Assembly: GCA_026196575.1 (NCBI GenBank)
Contig: JAPHSX010000028.1
Coordinates: 1-37,325 of the forward strand
Reading direction: 5' to 3'
DNA from: Gammaproteobacteria bacterium
GTDB lineage: Bacteria > Pseudomonadota > Gammaproteobacteria > Thiohalomonadales > Thiohalomonadaceae
DNA length: 37,325 bases
Positions 25,909 to 33,352 of the stretch are shown here, piece after piece. A model generated the notes under the pieces. That model saw nothing but the letters and a program-made list of their open reading frames with translations, ran no database searches and was not told where the DNA came from. How positions within the stretch are numbered: the stretch's first letter is position 1; every line of letters starts with the position of its first letter. Position numbers and translations under genes: made by a program.

Positions 25909-27058
<1,150 letters not shown>

Positions 27059-27059
<1 letters not shown>

Positions 27060-27634
27060 TGGCACATATTAATCTACTTCCCTGGCGCGAGGCGCTACGC
27101 AAGCAGAAGAAACAGGATTTTTTTGCGGTTGTCGCCATTTTCTCCGGCATCATGATCGCTGTGGTTATCGCCGCTCATCTCTACATGGCGAGCCTCATTG
27201 ATAACCAGATTGCGCGCAACGAGACGCTGAAGCGTGAAATAACGCAGATCGACAAAAAAATTAAAGAGATAAAAGATCTCGAAAATCAGAAAGAGCAGCT
27301 GATAGCCAGAATGCGGGTTATCGAGGAGCTGCAGAGTAACCGTCCTGCGATTGTGCGTTTGTTCGACGAGCTGGCAAAAATCATCCCCGAAGGTCTCTAT
27401 ATCGACTCCCTGGTACAGAAAAATGGTTCAATCACCATTACCGGCCAGGCGCAATCGAATGCGCGGGTATCCGCCTTTATGCGTGCGCTGGAAGAGTCGG
27501 CATGGTTTAAACAACCCTCTTTGGAGGTCATCAGCTCGAAAAGCGCCGGGGCAAGAAAGGCGCGTGAATTCACCCTGCGTGTGAGTCAGGACGCGCCCGT
27601 TAGTCAGGATGCCGTGGATGGGGGTGGAAAGTGA
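27059..27634 (+). CDS. pilN: Type IV pilus inner-membrane protein PilN
   Basis: A 191-residue bitopic protein. The start INLLPWREALRKQKKQ is the conserved PilM-binding tail, followed by one membrane helix (about 21-45) and a periplasmic coiled coil plus ferredoxin-like domain. It pairs with PilO to link PilM to PilP and the secretin. The stop overlaps the pilO start by the GTGA junction. Confidence 0.96.
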
Positions 27635-28284
27635 AAGTAGACTTCAGATCTATCGGTGAGCAGTTTAGTAATCTCGATCCGGATAATATCGGTAATTGGC
27701 CGATATTGGTGCGCTCAATGATCGTGCTGCTGGTCTGCGCGGCCGTGCTGGGTGGGGGATACTATTTTGATACCCAACACCAGCAAGTGGAGCTGGAGCG
27801 GGTGGTCGCGGAAGAGGAGGGCCTCTGGTCGACAATCGAAAAGAAGCAGCTGAAGGCGGCGAATCTGGCCGACTACAAGGCGCAGATGATTGAGATGGAG
27901 GAGTCATTCGGCACCATGTTGCGGCAACTGCCGAGCAAGAACGAGGTGGCCGATCTGCTGGTGGATGTTACCCAAACCGGGCTGGCCAGCGGGTTGGAGT
28001 TTGAGCTGTTCAAACCGAATAACGAACAACCCAAAGAGTTTTATGCGGTACTGCCGATAACGGTGAATGTGAACGGCCATTATCATAATCTGGGTCAATT
28101 TGTCAGTGGCGTTGCCGCCTTGCCGCGAATCGTGACGATCCACGATATTCAGTTAAAGGTAACCGATCCCGAAACGAGACGACTGACGATGACGGCCACG
28201 GCAAAGACCTATCGCTATCTGGACGACGATGAAATAGCTGCCGGTAAACCCAAGGCCAAAGCCGGAAAAAAAGGGAAGAAATAA
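27631..28284 (+). CDS. pilO: Type IV pilus inner-membrane protein PilO
   Basis: A 217-residue protein with a short cytoplasmic start, a membrane helix at about 27-47 (RSMIVLLVCAAVLGGGYYF) and a periplasmic coiled coil with a ferredoxin-like fold. It starts with GTG overlapping the pilN stop. The C-terminus is lysine-rich (GKPKAKAGKKGKK), longer than the usual end. Confidence 0.95.
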   Translation: MKVDFRSIGEQFSNLDPDNIGNWPILVRSMIVLLVCAAVLGGGYYFDTQHQQVELERVVAEEEGLWSTIEKKQLKAANLADYKAQMIEMEESFGTMLRQLPSKNEVADLLVDVTQTGLASGLEFELFKPNNEQPKEFYAVLPITVNVNGHYHNLGQFVSGVAALPRIVTIHDIQLKVTDPETRRLTMTATAKTYRYLDDDEIAAGKPKAKAGKKGKK

Positions 28285-28350
28285 GGTGCGCAGCATGCAA
28301 AATGGGTTGACGGAATACCGATTGGTAACCCGCGGGTTCAGGTGATCAGA

Positions 28351-28917
28351 ATGGCAATGAAAACATCCAATACAATGAGGCACCACAATCGTAGCGGCGG
28401 TTCGGTTGCAATCCTGGGGCTGGCAGCGTTGCTGTTGACCCTGGGTGGCTGCAGCTCGTTGGATAACAGTGATCTGGACAAAAGACTGGCTGAGATAAAG
28501 GCCAGGCCGGCGAAAAAGATACCCCCGTTGCCGGTGTTCAAGCCGTACGAGACGTTTCTTTACAGCGCGAGTGAAGAGCAGGACCCGTTCAAATTGTTCG
28601 ACGGTCTGGCCATCGCGCCCACGACGGAAGAAATGGTTGCCGACAATCCGCTGAAGGATCGAAATCTTGAGGCGCTGGAACAGTATCCGCTCGATACCCT
28701 GCGATATGTAGGACAGCTAACAACGGATGGCAGGGATTGGGCCATCATTACCTCTCCGGATCTGATAGTACACCGGGTGCAGGTTGGCAATTACCTGGGC
28801 CAGAACTATGGCCGCATCACCGCGATACAGCAGAATAAAATATTGATTACTGAGACGATAGCCGATGATTATCGCGGATGGATTGAACGAGATGCCGCAC
28901 TCAGTCTCTCGGAATGA
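28351..28917 (+). CDS. pilP: Type IV pilus lipoprotein PilP
   Basis: A 188-residue inner-membrane lipoprotein. The signal ends in LTLGGC with the lipidated Cys34, followed by a disordered proline-rich part and the beta-sandwich domain (PLDTLRYVGQL ... YLGQNYGRITAI) that contacts PilQ. A GTG at 28342 and ATGs at 28351 and 28357 are in frame; I choose 28351 because AGGT lies seven bases upstream. Part of pilMNOPQ. Confidence 0.93.
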   Translation: MAMKTSNTMRHHNRSGGSVAILGLAALLLTLGGCSSLDNSDLDKRLAEIKARPAKKIPPLPVFKPYETFLYSASEEQDPFKLFDGLAIAPTTEEMVADNPLKDRNLEALEQYPLDTLRYVGQLTTDGRDWAIITSPDLIVHRVQVGNYLGQNYGRITAIQQNKILITETIADDYRGWIERDAALSLSE

Positions 28918-28935: not shown

Positions 28936-31071
28936 ATGATGCGTAAAATAAACAACAGATACGATGGGAAAATCATGAACTTACTTCATATTGCGGTGCT
29001 ACTGATTGCGTTGCCGGTACTGCAGCTGAGTGCTACCGACACGCAAGCGGCTGAGGGTAATGTGTTGAATGCGGTCGATTATGTCACCCTGCCGGGGGGC
29101 AAGGTGCAGCTGCGTCTGGGTTTTGACAAACCGGTGAGTGAAGACCCCTCCAGCTTCTCCATTGAGCAGCCACCACGCCTCTCTGTGGACTTTGCCGCGA
29201 CCTCGATGGCACTGGCAAAGAAAATGCTGCAATTTGATGCGGGTGTGCTGAATAGCGTACGGGTGGTGCAGGCGAATGACCGCACCCGCGTCGTGGTGAA
29301 CATGAAGGCCATGGTGCCATACGAGATCAGAACAGAAGCCAATTTGGTGTTCATCAATTTTGCGAGCCAGGAGCAGCAAGTACAGCAGGCGGCACTGGCC
29401 ATTGCCACCGGCAAGGCATCAAACAGCATTCCTGAGATAGATTTCAGGCGCGGTGCGGTGGGCGAGGGGAAGATCACCTTTGCACTCTCCGATGCGAACA
29501 CGATCATAAATATGGAGGAGAAGGGCAACAAAATTATAATCGACTTTGTGAATGCGCAACTGCCGGAAAAACTGGTGCGGCGCCTGGATGTAACGGACTT
29601 TGCCACCCCTATCAGTACCATCGACGCCTTTAACGTGGGACAGGGCGCCCGCATTGTCGTTGATTCAACGGGCAATTTTGAACACATGGCGTATCAGGCG
29701 GGCAAGGAGTTTATTATTGCTATCAAGCCGCTGAGCGCGGAGGAGGTAACGGAGAAACAGAAGGACAAATTCGGCTACTCCGGGCAGAAGCTCTCACTCA
29801 ACTTCCAGAATATCGAGGTGCGGGCAGTACTGCAGCTGATTGCCGATTTCACCGATAAAAACGTGGTGGCCAGCGACACGGTGCAGGGCAATATCACGCT
29901 GCGTCTGAAGAATGTCCCCTGGGATCAGGCACTCGACATTATCCTGCGCACCCGTGGCCTGGGCATGAGGGAGAGCGGCAACGTTATTCTTATCGCCCCC
30001 AATGCCGAGATCGCCGCGCGAGAGAAAGAGGAGCTGGAGGCGCAGAAGCAGATGATCGATCTGGCGCCGGTGCAGACCCGCTATCATCAAATCAACTACG
30101 CCAAGGCCGCCGATATCGCAGGCCTGTTGAAGGGCGAGAAGAACAGCATCCTCACGGAGAGGGGCAGTGTGACAATTGACGAGCGCACCAATACCCTGAT
30201 GGTGCTGGAGACCTCAACCAAGCATGAAGAGGTCGCTGCACTCATTCAAAAGCTGGATATTCCGGTCAGGCAGGTGATGATCGAGTCACGCATCGTGATC
30301 GCCAATGATGATTTTGGCCGGGATCTGGGGATCCGAACCGGCGTCACCGGCGTTACCGATAATGGCACGAACGGCATTATCGCCGCCACCGGCAGTACGG
30401 CGGGTACCGACACCATGGTTAGCAGCGCGATTGCCAATAACCTGGCTGGCACCGGGCCCTACCCTGTCGAGATGCCAGCGTTGGAAAACCGCTACAACGT
30501 CAACCTGCCGGTAAGTGGTGCCGGCAGCCTGGCGCTGGCAATCCTGGGCAGTGACTATCTGGTCGACCTGGAACTCTCGGCACTGCAGACGGAAGGGCGT
30601 GGCGAGGTGCTGTCAAACCCCAGGGTGATCACATCCAATCAGAAAGTGGCCCGTATTGAACAGGGTGTCGAGATCCCCTACCAGGAGGCGGCATCAAGTG
30701 GCGCCACCAGCGTCTCGTTCAAAAAGGCGGTGCTGAGTCTGGAGGTGACACCACAGATCACTCCGGATGATCGGGTGGTGATGGACCTCTCGGTAAACAA
30801 GGACAGCGTCGGCGGCATTTACTCGGGCGTACCGTCCATTAACACCCGCTCCATCACCACCCAGGTGCTGGTGAATAACGGTGATACCGTAGTGCTGGGC
30901 GGTGTCTATGAGCAGAGCACCTCGGAGGGCAACACCAAGGTGCCCCTGCTGGGCGATATTCCGATCCTCGGCGCCCTGTTCCGCTCGACCTCCCGCAAGG
31001 AGAGCAAGGCAGAACTGCTGATTTTCGTTACGCCAAAAATTCTGAACGACAAATTGAATACTGGGCTGTAG
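28936..31071 (+). CDS. pilQ: Type IV pilus secretin PilQ
   Basis: The 711-residue outer-membrane secretin has a signal peptide (residues 14-40 region), two AMIN domains (about 48-290) that bind peptidoglycan, secretin N domains (about 300-450) and the pore-forming secretin domain (LSALQTEGRGEVLSNPRVITSNQ to ELLIFVTPKI). It forms the gate through which the pilus leaves. AAGGAG is six bases before the ATG at 28936; an internal ATG at 28975 is possible. The last gene of the pil operon proper. Confidence 0.96.
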   Translation: MMRKINNRYDGKIMNLLHIAVLLIALPVLQLSATDTQAAEGNVLNAVDYVTLPGGKVQLRLGFDKPVSEDPSSFSIEQPPRLSVDFAATSMALAKKMLQFDAGVLNSVRVVQANDRTRVVVNMKAMVPYEIRTEANLVFINFASQEQQVQQAALAIATGKASNSIPEIDFRRGAVGEGKITFALSDANTIINMEEKGNKIIIDFVNAQLPEKLVRRLDVTDFATPISTIDAFNVGQGARIVVDSTGNFEHMAYQAGKEFIIAIKPLSAEEVTEKQKDKFGYSGQKLSLNFQNIEVRAVLQLIADFTDKNVVASDTVQGNITLRLKNVPWDQALDIILRTRGLGMRESGNVILIAPNAEIAAREKEELEAQKQMIDLAPVQTRYHQINYAKAADIAGLLKGEKNSILTERGSVTIDERTNTLMVLETSTKHEEVAALIQKLDIPVRQVMIESRIVIANDDFGRDLGIRTGVTGVTDNGTNGIIAATGSTAGTDTMVSSAIANNLAGTGPYPVEMPALENRYNVNLPVSGAGSLALAILGSDYLVDLELSALQTEGRGEVLSNPRVITSNQKVARIEQGVEIPYQEAASSGATSVSFKKAVLSLEVTPQITPDDRVVMDLSVNKDSVGGIYSGVPSINTRSITTQVLVNNGDTVVLGGVYEQSTSEGNTKVPLLGDIPILGALFRSTSRKESKAELLIFVTPKILNDKLNTGL

Positions 31072-31099
31072 ACGTCTGCGCTATAAGGAACCGACTGTA

Positions 31100-32803
31100 A
31101 TGAACGTTTTACCTGTAATAAAACATCTCTGTAAGCGTGTCGCGCTAGTGGCACTGTTGCCACTGTTCCTGGCCGGATGTGAGAGTAGTTCGACTTTTTA
31201 TGGCGAACAGGATGCCACCTCCACCCCTGGTCTTGTCGACAGCAGCACGATCATGCTGGGTAGCGGAATTGGTTCGTCCTTTGTTCCGGGTGTTTTACAA
31301 ATTGGGCTGACGTCGCTTAGCGCAGGTGGCACAACGGAGGTGCTTGCAACCCTGGCTGACAGTTCCGGAGCGCTGTATACCACTCCGACTGAGGTCTCTT
31401 TTCATTCGTTATGTACCGGCTCAAACAAGGCAGAAATTACAACGCCGGTAACCTCCGTCGACGGCATTATTGTTACATCCTATACAGCGACCGGATGCAG
31501 TGGTGCGGATACGATCTATGCCACGGCATCAATCGATGGGCGAGAGGTGTCGGCGACAGGCAGTCTGACTATTCAACCGGCGGTGGCCGGGCAGGTTGTG
31601 TTTGTGAGTGCCGAACCGGCGGAAATCGGTATAGAGGGTACGGGTGCGGTTGAACTTTCGACCCTGACCTTCAAGGTACTGGATAGTAGTGGTGCGGCAA
31701 TCGCCAATGAGGATGTTACCTTCTCGCTGAATACCACCGTGGGAGGGATAACATTATCAACCACAACGGCAACCAGCAATTCAGCGGGTGAGGTGCTTGT
31801 AGTGGTGGCATCGGGTACCGTCAGTACCGTGGTACGGGTAACGGCCACCTTGGTGAGCAATACCTTGATATCAACGCAGTCGGAGAGTCTGGTTATTTAT
31901 GGTGGCCTGTCCGATCAGGGCAAGCTTTCCCTCTCTGCCGATGTCTACAATCCGGAGGGATGGAACTTTGATGGCGAGGTGGTAAACCTCACGGTCTATG
32001 CCTCCGATCATTTTAGCAATCCGGTAAGGGATGGCACCGCAGTATATTTTACCGCTGAGGGTGGGCAGATGGCTGGAACCTGCACGATAAGCAATGGCTC
32101 CTGCTCTGCTGAATGGAAGAGTGCCAATCGACGCCCACAGGACGGACGGGTCACCGTTACCGCCACCATGCAGGGTGAGGAGAACTTTTCGGATGACAAC
32201 GGTAACGGTGTGCTTGATGATGGTGAAATTTATGGTGATTTGCCGGAGGCGTGGTACGACTATAACGAAAACGGCGTTTACGACGCGGCGACTAACCTGG
32301 TGGATGCCTACGGTGCGACGTACCGTGAGGAGTTTAGGGACTTTGATAGCGATGGTTTGTATGACGCCGCGGATGGGAAGTATAACGGGGTTTTGTGTAA
32401 TCCGGCGAACATCGTGAATGTTTGTGGTGCCTCACGCAGTGTAGATGCGCGTGGTGATCTGGTGCTCGTGATGTCCGGCAGTCATGCCTACTTCAGTTAC
32501 GGTGCTTCGCCACTATCATTCGCCAAGGCGACCGTGGGTAAGACTAACGTCACCATCATGGATGTGAATGGGCAGACGCTGCCGAACGGAACGACCATAA
32601 GTATAGTGGCAGGTGATGATTTGGTTCTAAACTCTTCCGAATCCTATACCGTGGTGAACACCAGTGTGGCGGGTGGGATTGTTATCCCTATTTTCGTAGA
32701 GCCCGCTGACACTTCGGTTGCCGGGACGGATTTAGTTACCATCACGGTAACGACACCCAATGGAATCGAAACCATAGATTACCTGGATGTGTCGTGGTTC
32801 TAA
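31100..32803 (+). CDS. Large Ig-like lipoprotein with DxDxDG calcium-type repeats, inserted between pilQ and aroK
   Basis: A 567-residue lipoprotein. The signal peptide ends in LFLAGC with Cys27 lipidated; the following residue is Glu, not Asp, so sorting to the outer membrane is expected. Two Ig-like/Big-1-like beta domains appear at about 160-268 and 270-360. Three acidic Ca-binding-like repeats follow: DDNGNGVLDDGE (365-376), DYNENGVYDAAT (387-398) and DFDSDGLYDAAD (414-425), then a further beta domain to the end. The start is the ATG at 31100 after AAGGA, 28 bases past pilQ, so it is probably co-transcribed with it. Serine/threonine-rich composition suits a surface protein. A role at the pilus port or in adhesion is inference; no known gene symbol. 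Confidence 0.75.
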   Translation: MNVLPVIKHLCKRVALVALLPLFLAGCESSSTFYGEQDATSTPGLVDSSTIMLGSGIGSSFVPGVLQIGLTSLSAGGTTEVLATLADSSGALYTTPTEVSFHSLCTGSNKAEITTPVTSVDGIIVTSYTATGCSGADTIYATASIDGREVSATGSLTIQPAVAGQVVFVSAEPAEIGIEGTGAVELSTLTFKVLDSSGAAIANEDVTFSLNTTVGGITLSTTTATSNSAGEVLVVVASGTVSTVVRVTATLVSNTLISTQSESLVIYGGLSDQGKLSLSADVYNPEGWNFDGEVVNLTVYASDHFSNPVRDGTAVYFTAEGGQMAGTCTISNGSCSAEWKSANRRPQDGRVTVTATMQGEENFSDDNGNGVLDDGEIYGDLPEAWYDYNENGVYDAATNLVDAYGATYREEFRDFDSDGLYDAADGKYNGVLCNPANIVNVCGASRSVDARGDLVLVMSGSHAYFSYGASPLSFAKATVGKTNVTIMDVNGQTLPNGTTISIVAGDDLVLNSSESYTVVNTSVAGGIVIPIFVEPADTSVAGTDLVTITVTTPNGIETIDYLDVSWF

Positions 32804-32824
32804 GAGAAGTTAAAATTTAGCGTC

Positions 32825-33352
32825 ATGAGTGCGATTATCCTTGTCGGCCCCATGGGTTCCGGCAAGAGCACCATCGGGCGGCAGCTGGCCACGGCCTTGA
32901 AAAAGGAGTTCAGGGACAGCGATCACGAGATCGTGGCGCGTACCGGGGCGAGTATTCCGCTTATCTTCGAGATTGAGGGTGAGGAGGGGTTTCGCAAACG
33001 CGAGGCGGCGATGCTGGATGAGCTGACGCAGCTCGACGGCATCGTGCTGGCGACCGGCGGCGGGGCGGTGCTGCGCGAGGAAAATCGGCAACACCTGGCG
33101 CAGCGTGGGGTGGTGATCTACCTCTACGCCTCGGTGGAGCAGCTGTTTGAACGCACCGCGCGCGATCGCAACCGGCCGCTGTTGCAGACGGAGAATCCGC
33201 GCCAGAAGTTGCAGCAGCTGATGGAGCAGCGCGACCCGCTCTACCGGGAGGTGGCCGATATGGTGGTGCACACTGACGACCGGTCGATTCGCAGCGTGGT
33301 CAAGGAGATCCTGGTGCGTCTGCGCCAGGAGCCGAAATACGGCGGCGGATGA
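32825..33352 (+). CDS. aroK: Shikimate kinase
   Basis: A 175-residue P-loop kinase. Walker A is GPMGSGKST (8-16), then [11 protein letters not shown] with the shikimate-binding Asp, FRKREAAML and [11 protein letters not shown], and the LID Arg in [11 protein letters not shown]. It phosphorylates shikimate in aromatic amino acid synthesis. The aroK-aroB order next to pilQ is the usual one. Confidence 0.96.

Follow-up and report, generated by a model that had tools for sequence, protein, structure and literature searches.

The type IV pilus machine is regarded as well catalogued, and the question raised by the present locus is whether a gene lodged in one of its operons encodes a further part of it. 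In the window (the whole stretch of DNA analysed, 37,325 nucleotides), the preliminary description had placed an open reading frame for an Ig-like lipoprotein in the gap between pilQ and aroK, and had linked it to the pilus by this position. The spacing was reproduced (Table 1): pilQ ends at 31071, 28 nt upstream of the lipoprotein start, and aroK starts at 32825, 21 nt downstream of the lipoprotein end. The gene is present as a single copy in its own genome (2.74 Mb, 74 contigs), and its G+C content (about 0.50-0.55) is lower than that of aroB and beyond (0.60-0.69) and near that of parts of the pil genes. Elsewhere in the window, the last open reading frame hits a short V-E-P repeat at the contig end (37250-37325).

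Table 1. Coordinates of the lipoprotein gene, its parts and its neighbours in the window, and of barrel genes at loci of other genomes
Feature	Position	Strand	Basis
pilM	25986-27059	+	ORF; named by eye from order and sequence
pilN	27059-27634	+	ORF; named by eye from order and sequence
pilO	27631-28284	+	ORF; named by eye from order and sequence
pilP	28342-28917	+	ORF; named by eye from order and sequence
pilMNOP run together	25986-28917	+	names given without a family search
pilQ, type IV pilus secretin, 711 aa	28936-31071	+	TIGR02515, E 7.7e-157
Ig-like lipoprotein gene	31100-32803	+	ORF listing, ATG start, 567 aa
Leader and lipobox LAGC, lipidated Cys27	31100-31180	+	sequence reading
Ig-like domain 1, about aa 48-160	31241-31579	+	AlphaFold model
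Ig-like domain 2, about aa 161-270	31580-31909	+	model, fold matches, Big_1 match at aa 186-256
Ig-like domain 3 with loop insertion, about aa 271-460	31910-32479	+	model
Putative calcium-type loop block, aa 360-433, three D-x-[DN]-x-[DN]-G loops	32177-32398	+	residue conservation
Ig-like domain 4, distal end, about aa 464-567	32489-32800	+	AlphaFold model
aroK, shikimate kinase	32825-33352	+	NF003456, E 2.8e-66
OMP_b-brl gene, G104 locus	L041:10539-11102
OMP_b-brl gene, G290 locus	L042:4061-4603
OMP_b-brl gene, G146 locus	L043:8280-8816
OMP_b-brl gene, G172 locus	L055:7838-8497

The encoded protein has the leader and cysteine-ending lipobox of a bacterial lipoprotein (LAGC, aa 24-27; L24-A25-G26-C27 was read from the sequence), and most of its junction relatives also possess a lipobox. 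The residue following the lipidated cysteine sorts lipoproteins (the Glu versus Asp rule), and since Glu rather than Asp is found here, the protein is probably located in the outer membrane. A Pfam search returned Big_1 (PF02369) as the sole match (E 3.6e-7), which at 30.6 bits lies below the gathering cut-off of 34.9 bits, while relatives at the same junction lie above it. The claim of Ig-like content was supported by an AlphaFold model based on 36 relatives (mean pLDDT 86.2, pTM 0.56), in which 47 disordered residues are followed by four Ig-like domains, the limits of which were assigned by us from the strands of the model. A sequence search of solved structures yielded no relative of the protein at E 1, and a plasmid search yielded no match.

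The three D-x-[DN]-x-[DN]-G repeats of the preliminary description are present as DDNGNG (aa 365-370), DYNENG (aa 387-392) and DFDSDG (aa 414-419), and the structure prediction that it had called for across aa 360-430 places them in an insertion of approximately 85 residues that separates the final two strands of domain 3. In the 36-row alignment of the window's family, D365, D387 and D414 are retained in 35/36, 35/35 and 35/35 of the rows with a letter, respectively, which argues that the loops are not due to chance. D425 is retained in 30/34 rows, C328 and C335 are invariant, and the acidic residues of the loops rank among the best-kept positions of the family. The family has the conserved acidic ligands of calcium-binding loops, and domain 3 of the window protein may thus bind calcium. 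A 241-aa relative (G267) has nothing beyond the leader and an insertion-bearing domain 3 (AlphaFold mean pLDDT 83.5, pTM 0.77; fold like domain 3), and a minimal lipoprotein form of 225 aa occurs in G155; as such forms represent domain 3 alone, the loop-bearing domain constitutes the core of the family. Foldseek gave no match to the minimal form at E 0.001, and a second structure comparison gave Z 9.0-9.7 to the Ig domains of intimin, InvE, FdeC and invasin, a range that also covers Ig domains of family-2 glycoside hydrolases.

A survey of pilQ-aroK junctions in related genomes, which the preliminary description had proposed, showed that Ig-domain lipoproteins repeatedly occupy this site, both in two whole families and in scattered others. 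The first is the window's own family (20 genomes; its order comprises the same 20), where a pilQ match was found in 20/20 genomes and a lipoprotein-like ORF directly after pilQ in 13/20 (including G001 and G005, the leaders of which end in LQGC and LWGC and were missed by the lipobox pattern), the junction being empty in the remaining seven (G002, G006, G009, G010, G013, G014 and G015). Only two of the 13 occupants (G000, the window genome, and G019) are of the window's type; the other 11 are built differently, for the most part as stacked Big_1 and Invasin_D3 domains, and measure 618-3378 aa where complete. The calcium loops are therefore not the common trait of junction occupants. The occupants of G004 and G005 are truncated where their contigs end (that of G004 being too short for domain judgement) and that of G003 has a weak CarboxypepD_reg match only. 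The G001 occupant is a lipoprotein-like protein of 3036 aa (L155:540-9647 and beyond); within 13.5 kb downstream of it lie two 310-aa genes of nearly identical sequence, and no aroK was seen. Of the distinct Big_1 loci in the 20 genomes (E 1e-5, counted by us from the search rows), 10/15 lie at the pilQ-aroK junction, or 9/14 without the window's gene, for which the probability by chance is approximately 5e-28 if 2500 gene slots are assumed and kinship is ignored. In the second family (f82), which was chosen because occupants were already known there, a lipoprotein ORF follows pilQ in 6/6 genomes and five of the eight Big_1 loci (E 1e-6) are at the pilQ junction.

Across the class, 91 junctions were assessed among the PilQ matches listed, ordered by PilQ score rather than drawn at random, with three own-family genomes set aside and with some listed sites, close to a contig end or skipped, left out; 76 were empty, seven occupied and eight otherwise arranged. 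All seven occupants were Ig-type lipoproteins (weakly so in G144), and inclusion of the known carriers G080, G267 and G305, which were not counted among the 91, brings occupancy to 10/94. The window's family itself was found in 39/369 class genomes (three-row profile, 1e-10) and lies directly behind pilQ in 19 of these, across many GTDB families (including G221, where no aroK was found downstream, and G080, which matches via generic Ig repeats). In 18 carriers it occupies unrelated loci (including G081, G290 and G317, whose contigs are shorter than 10 kb, and G377, with no pilQ match within the 8.4 kb checked), and of the remaining two, G187 has it joined to aroK and not to pilQ and G212 at a contig edge. 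A Shewanella carassii relative (39%) is located between symporter-like and astB-like genes (named by eye). Among eight non-junction genomes examined, pilQ and aroK are adjacent in six (G146, G052, G366, G104, G157 and G079), and no aroK is found near pilQ in the other two (G215 and G187). A reading in which the family is bound to a single locus was rejected, as the calcium-loop family is found at many other loci too. The G053 copy (L052, G053:C1:839399-841211) is in pieces with stop codons and is probably a decayed gene.

The window's family shows no more than a weak association with pilQ: PilQ was detected at 1e-60 in 37/39 carriers versus 272/330 non-carriers (309/369 class genomes overall; p 0.06), and the carriers G210 and G290 gave only partial PilQ matches. 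The preliminary description had stated that a scatter over unrelated loci would speak against its proposal, and such scatter was found in part: 18/39 carriers have the gene elsewhere and two of the 39 have partial PilQ matches, while 19/39 have it behind pilQ. The window's family can therefore exist without the pilus locus, yet it recurs there. In a tree of 32 of the 36 rows (four short rows excluded, G187 treated as junction), at least eight changes of label are required against a shuffled mean of 11.0, values as low as that of the tree occurring in 19/500 shuffles; junction members thus appear to cluster weakly, and a single origin for them was rejected. At the non-junction loci of G104, G290, G146 and G172, the gene upstream of the lipoprotein gene encodes a small beta-barrel protein of the outer membrane (OMP_b-brl, E 4.9e-12 to 1.8e-16; Table 1). 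In three of the four genomes with a neighbouring gene pair, this eight-strand barrel gene, and not pilQ, is at most 25 nt before the lipoprotein, and it may be that the lipoprotein depends on, or makes use of, a partner gene for an outer-membrane protein, either pilQ or the barrel.

Expression signals were assessed within 30500-33200. The possibility that the gene has a strong promoter of its own, raised previously as an argument against a pilus link, did not hold up, since sigma-70-type promoter-like counts around the gene were no higher than chance; terminator-like counts were likewise at chance level. Across the genomes, a terminator-like hairpin was found in 37/76 of the empty class junctions described above, whereas none was found between pilQ and the lipoprotein in 20 occupied junctions; three of these 20 have one after the lipoprotein. 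At like gap lengths, hairpins were found in 28/43 empty versus 0/7 occupied junctions (p 0.002, with related genomes treated as independent). As hairpins are common in empty junctions and absent after pilQ in occupied ones, this suggests that the lipoprotein is read together with pilQ. Two empty junctions of one genus (G009 and G010; L158 and L160) bear a strong pilQ-aroK hairpin with a T run. The proposed link between position and pilus is thereby strengthened by the recurrence at the junction and by the 0/20 hairpins after pilQ, and weakened by the 18/39 carriers in which the family is found elsewhere.

Comparison of congeners indicated where the occupants differ. In G018 and G019, PilQ (last 160 aa) and AroK are 95.0% and 96.6% identical, respectively, as against 30.0% for the lipoprotein. 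At the DNA level, identity is 0.78-0.95 in pilQ, 0.67-0.78 over the gap, the leader and the first residues past the lipidated cysteine, about 0.4-0.6 over the remaining lipoprotein stretches compared, and 0.83-1.0 from aroK onward. For the window genome and its congener G007, the corresponding protein identities are 86.9% (PilQ end), 84.0% (AroK) and 26.7% (lipoprotein), the leaders in this pair having been matched by eye. Since the flanks and the leader with its anchor are retained and the ectodomains are dissimilar, this looks like a cassette swap of the ectodomain behind a retained anchor. G016 and G017 share one lipoprotein type (58.2% identity), and the junction is empty in three further genomes of their genus. 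A Phe residue 4-10 positions past the lipidated cysteine was considered as a junction-specific motif but not supported, being present in 20/36 junction versus 5/16 other members (p 0.14); it occurs in 0/31 further lipoproteins (PilP in many cases) encoded at the retrieved loci. For these counts, G348 and G221 were removed as near-duplicates and G004 as partial, and only rows with a lipobox were used.

Among known proteins, the best folds for the window model were domains of intimin, InvE, invasin and FdeC and the Ig domains of family-2 glycoside hydrolases; VIA-align ranked intimin D00-D0 and D0-D1 highest (Z 13.9; rmsd of 9.3 for 186 residues and of 12.8 for 184), while the Foldseek list was topped by complement and TEP proteins through their repeated Ig-like domains. 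The window protein shares the Ig-like rod of the intimin/invasin family (Big_1, Invasin_D3; FdeC, InvE, InvD), and Big_1 and Invasin_D3 also occur above cut-off in other junction occupants. It has, by model and fold matches, the rod of an inverse autotransporter; however, the N-terminal beta-barrel is absent from the model, which has a 26-aa leader, a lipidated cysteine, a disordered stretch and Ig-like domains. It thus differs from intimin/invasin in having a lipid anchor in place of an integral barrel, in its gene being located in a pilus operon, and in its calcium-type insertion. PilY1 (PF05567), a calcium-binding tip adhesin of the type IV pilus that carries a calcium-type loop, shares the idea of a pilus-linked adhesin but is a different protein, encoded separately in the window's own genome (L207, G000:C47:4764-5786; E 5.5e-75). 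PilY1 is found in 8/20 own-family genomes without relation to junction occupancy (5/13 occupied, 3/7 empty), and the notion that the occupant replaces it was rejected. In Pseudomonas, the variable accessory genes TfpO/TfpY/TfpZ lie beside pilA; the likeness is that of variable genes within a type IV pilus locus, and they differ in site and in kind of protein. SiiE, a giant adhesin, has calcium sites in its BIg domains (PMC5466336), comparable to the putative ones in the Ig-like domains considered here. It differs in being a giant protein of type I secretion.

The reading that we prefer, to which we would give slightly less than an even chance, is that of a type IV pilus operon accessory: an Ig-rod lipoprotein with a kept anchor and a swapped ectodomain, engaged in recognition or contact at the point where pili emerge. 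The gene lies within the pil run in independent families. The lipoprotein, probably of the outer membrane, would form a stalk built from Ig-like domains, its gene being expressed, next to that of the secretin, from the pilMNOPQ transcript. The leader and lipid anchor are retained, and the ectodomain is traded among relatives, either as invasin-type stacks of Ig domains (some 600 to 3400 aa) or as the calcium-loop type, in which calcium may stiffen or switch domain 3. The protein may be surface exposed and may have an adhesive or recognition role, its most likely job being short-range contact with, or recognition of, a surface, a neighbouring cell or a ligand. Because different ectodomain types reach the same slot, the rod could serve as an exchangeable recognition face; that it represents an undescribed, exchangeable module of the type IV pilus in many gammaproteobacteria, with a strain-specific face towards kin, surface, DNA or phage, is put forward tentatively and with somewhat more doubt than belief.

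It may instead be that a general surface adhesin merely uses the pil transcript, the pilQ-aroK gap being a tolerated landing site and the protein having no action on the pilus. The many unrelated loci of the window's family and the mixing of junction and other members in the tree (at least eight label changes, shuffled mean 11.0) favour such a passenger; however, the occupants are not assorted genes but Ig lipoproteins in 7/7 class cases (among the matches listed) and at nearly all family junctions, and 10/15 own-family Big_1 loci choose this one site, leaving this explanation rather unlikely. The replacement of the ectodomain in congeners between flanks of 95-97% identity would also be expected if the variable rod protects the secretin and the base of the pilus, as a shield or a screen, against phages brought in by retracting pili, but other selective causes would leave the same pattern, and we consider a face driven by phages improbable. 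Least probable is a pilotin-like helper in PilQ assembly or gating: the lipoprotein gene does lie directly after the secretin gene, yet 7/20 family genomes keep pilQ without it, and lengths of 225-3378 aa with dissimilar ectodomains misfit a conserved assembly job.

A literature search, outside which lay most subscription papers and all preprints, found no description of a lipoprotein with Ig domains encoded in the pilQ-aroK gap and no paper under phrases that name this junction; passages of PMC5542475 and PMC10587679 show no such gene. With regard to the preferred accessory reading, the data suggest that the variable Ig-rod lipoprotein by the secretin is a pilus accessory that is exchangeable and has been overlooked. 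The work additionally defines a calcium-loop Ig module, the natural minimal form of which (225-241 aa) suits structure work. If the accessory reading is true, a variable surface lipoprotein of the secretin operon would constitute a new accessory class of the type IV pilus, and diversifying selection would be indicated at the pilus gate.
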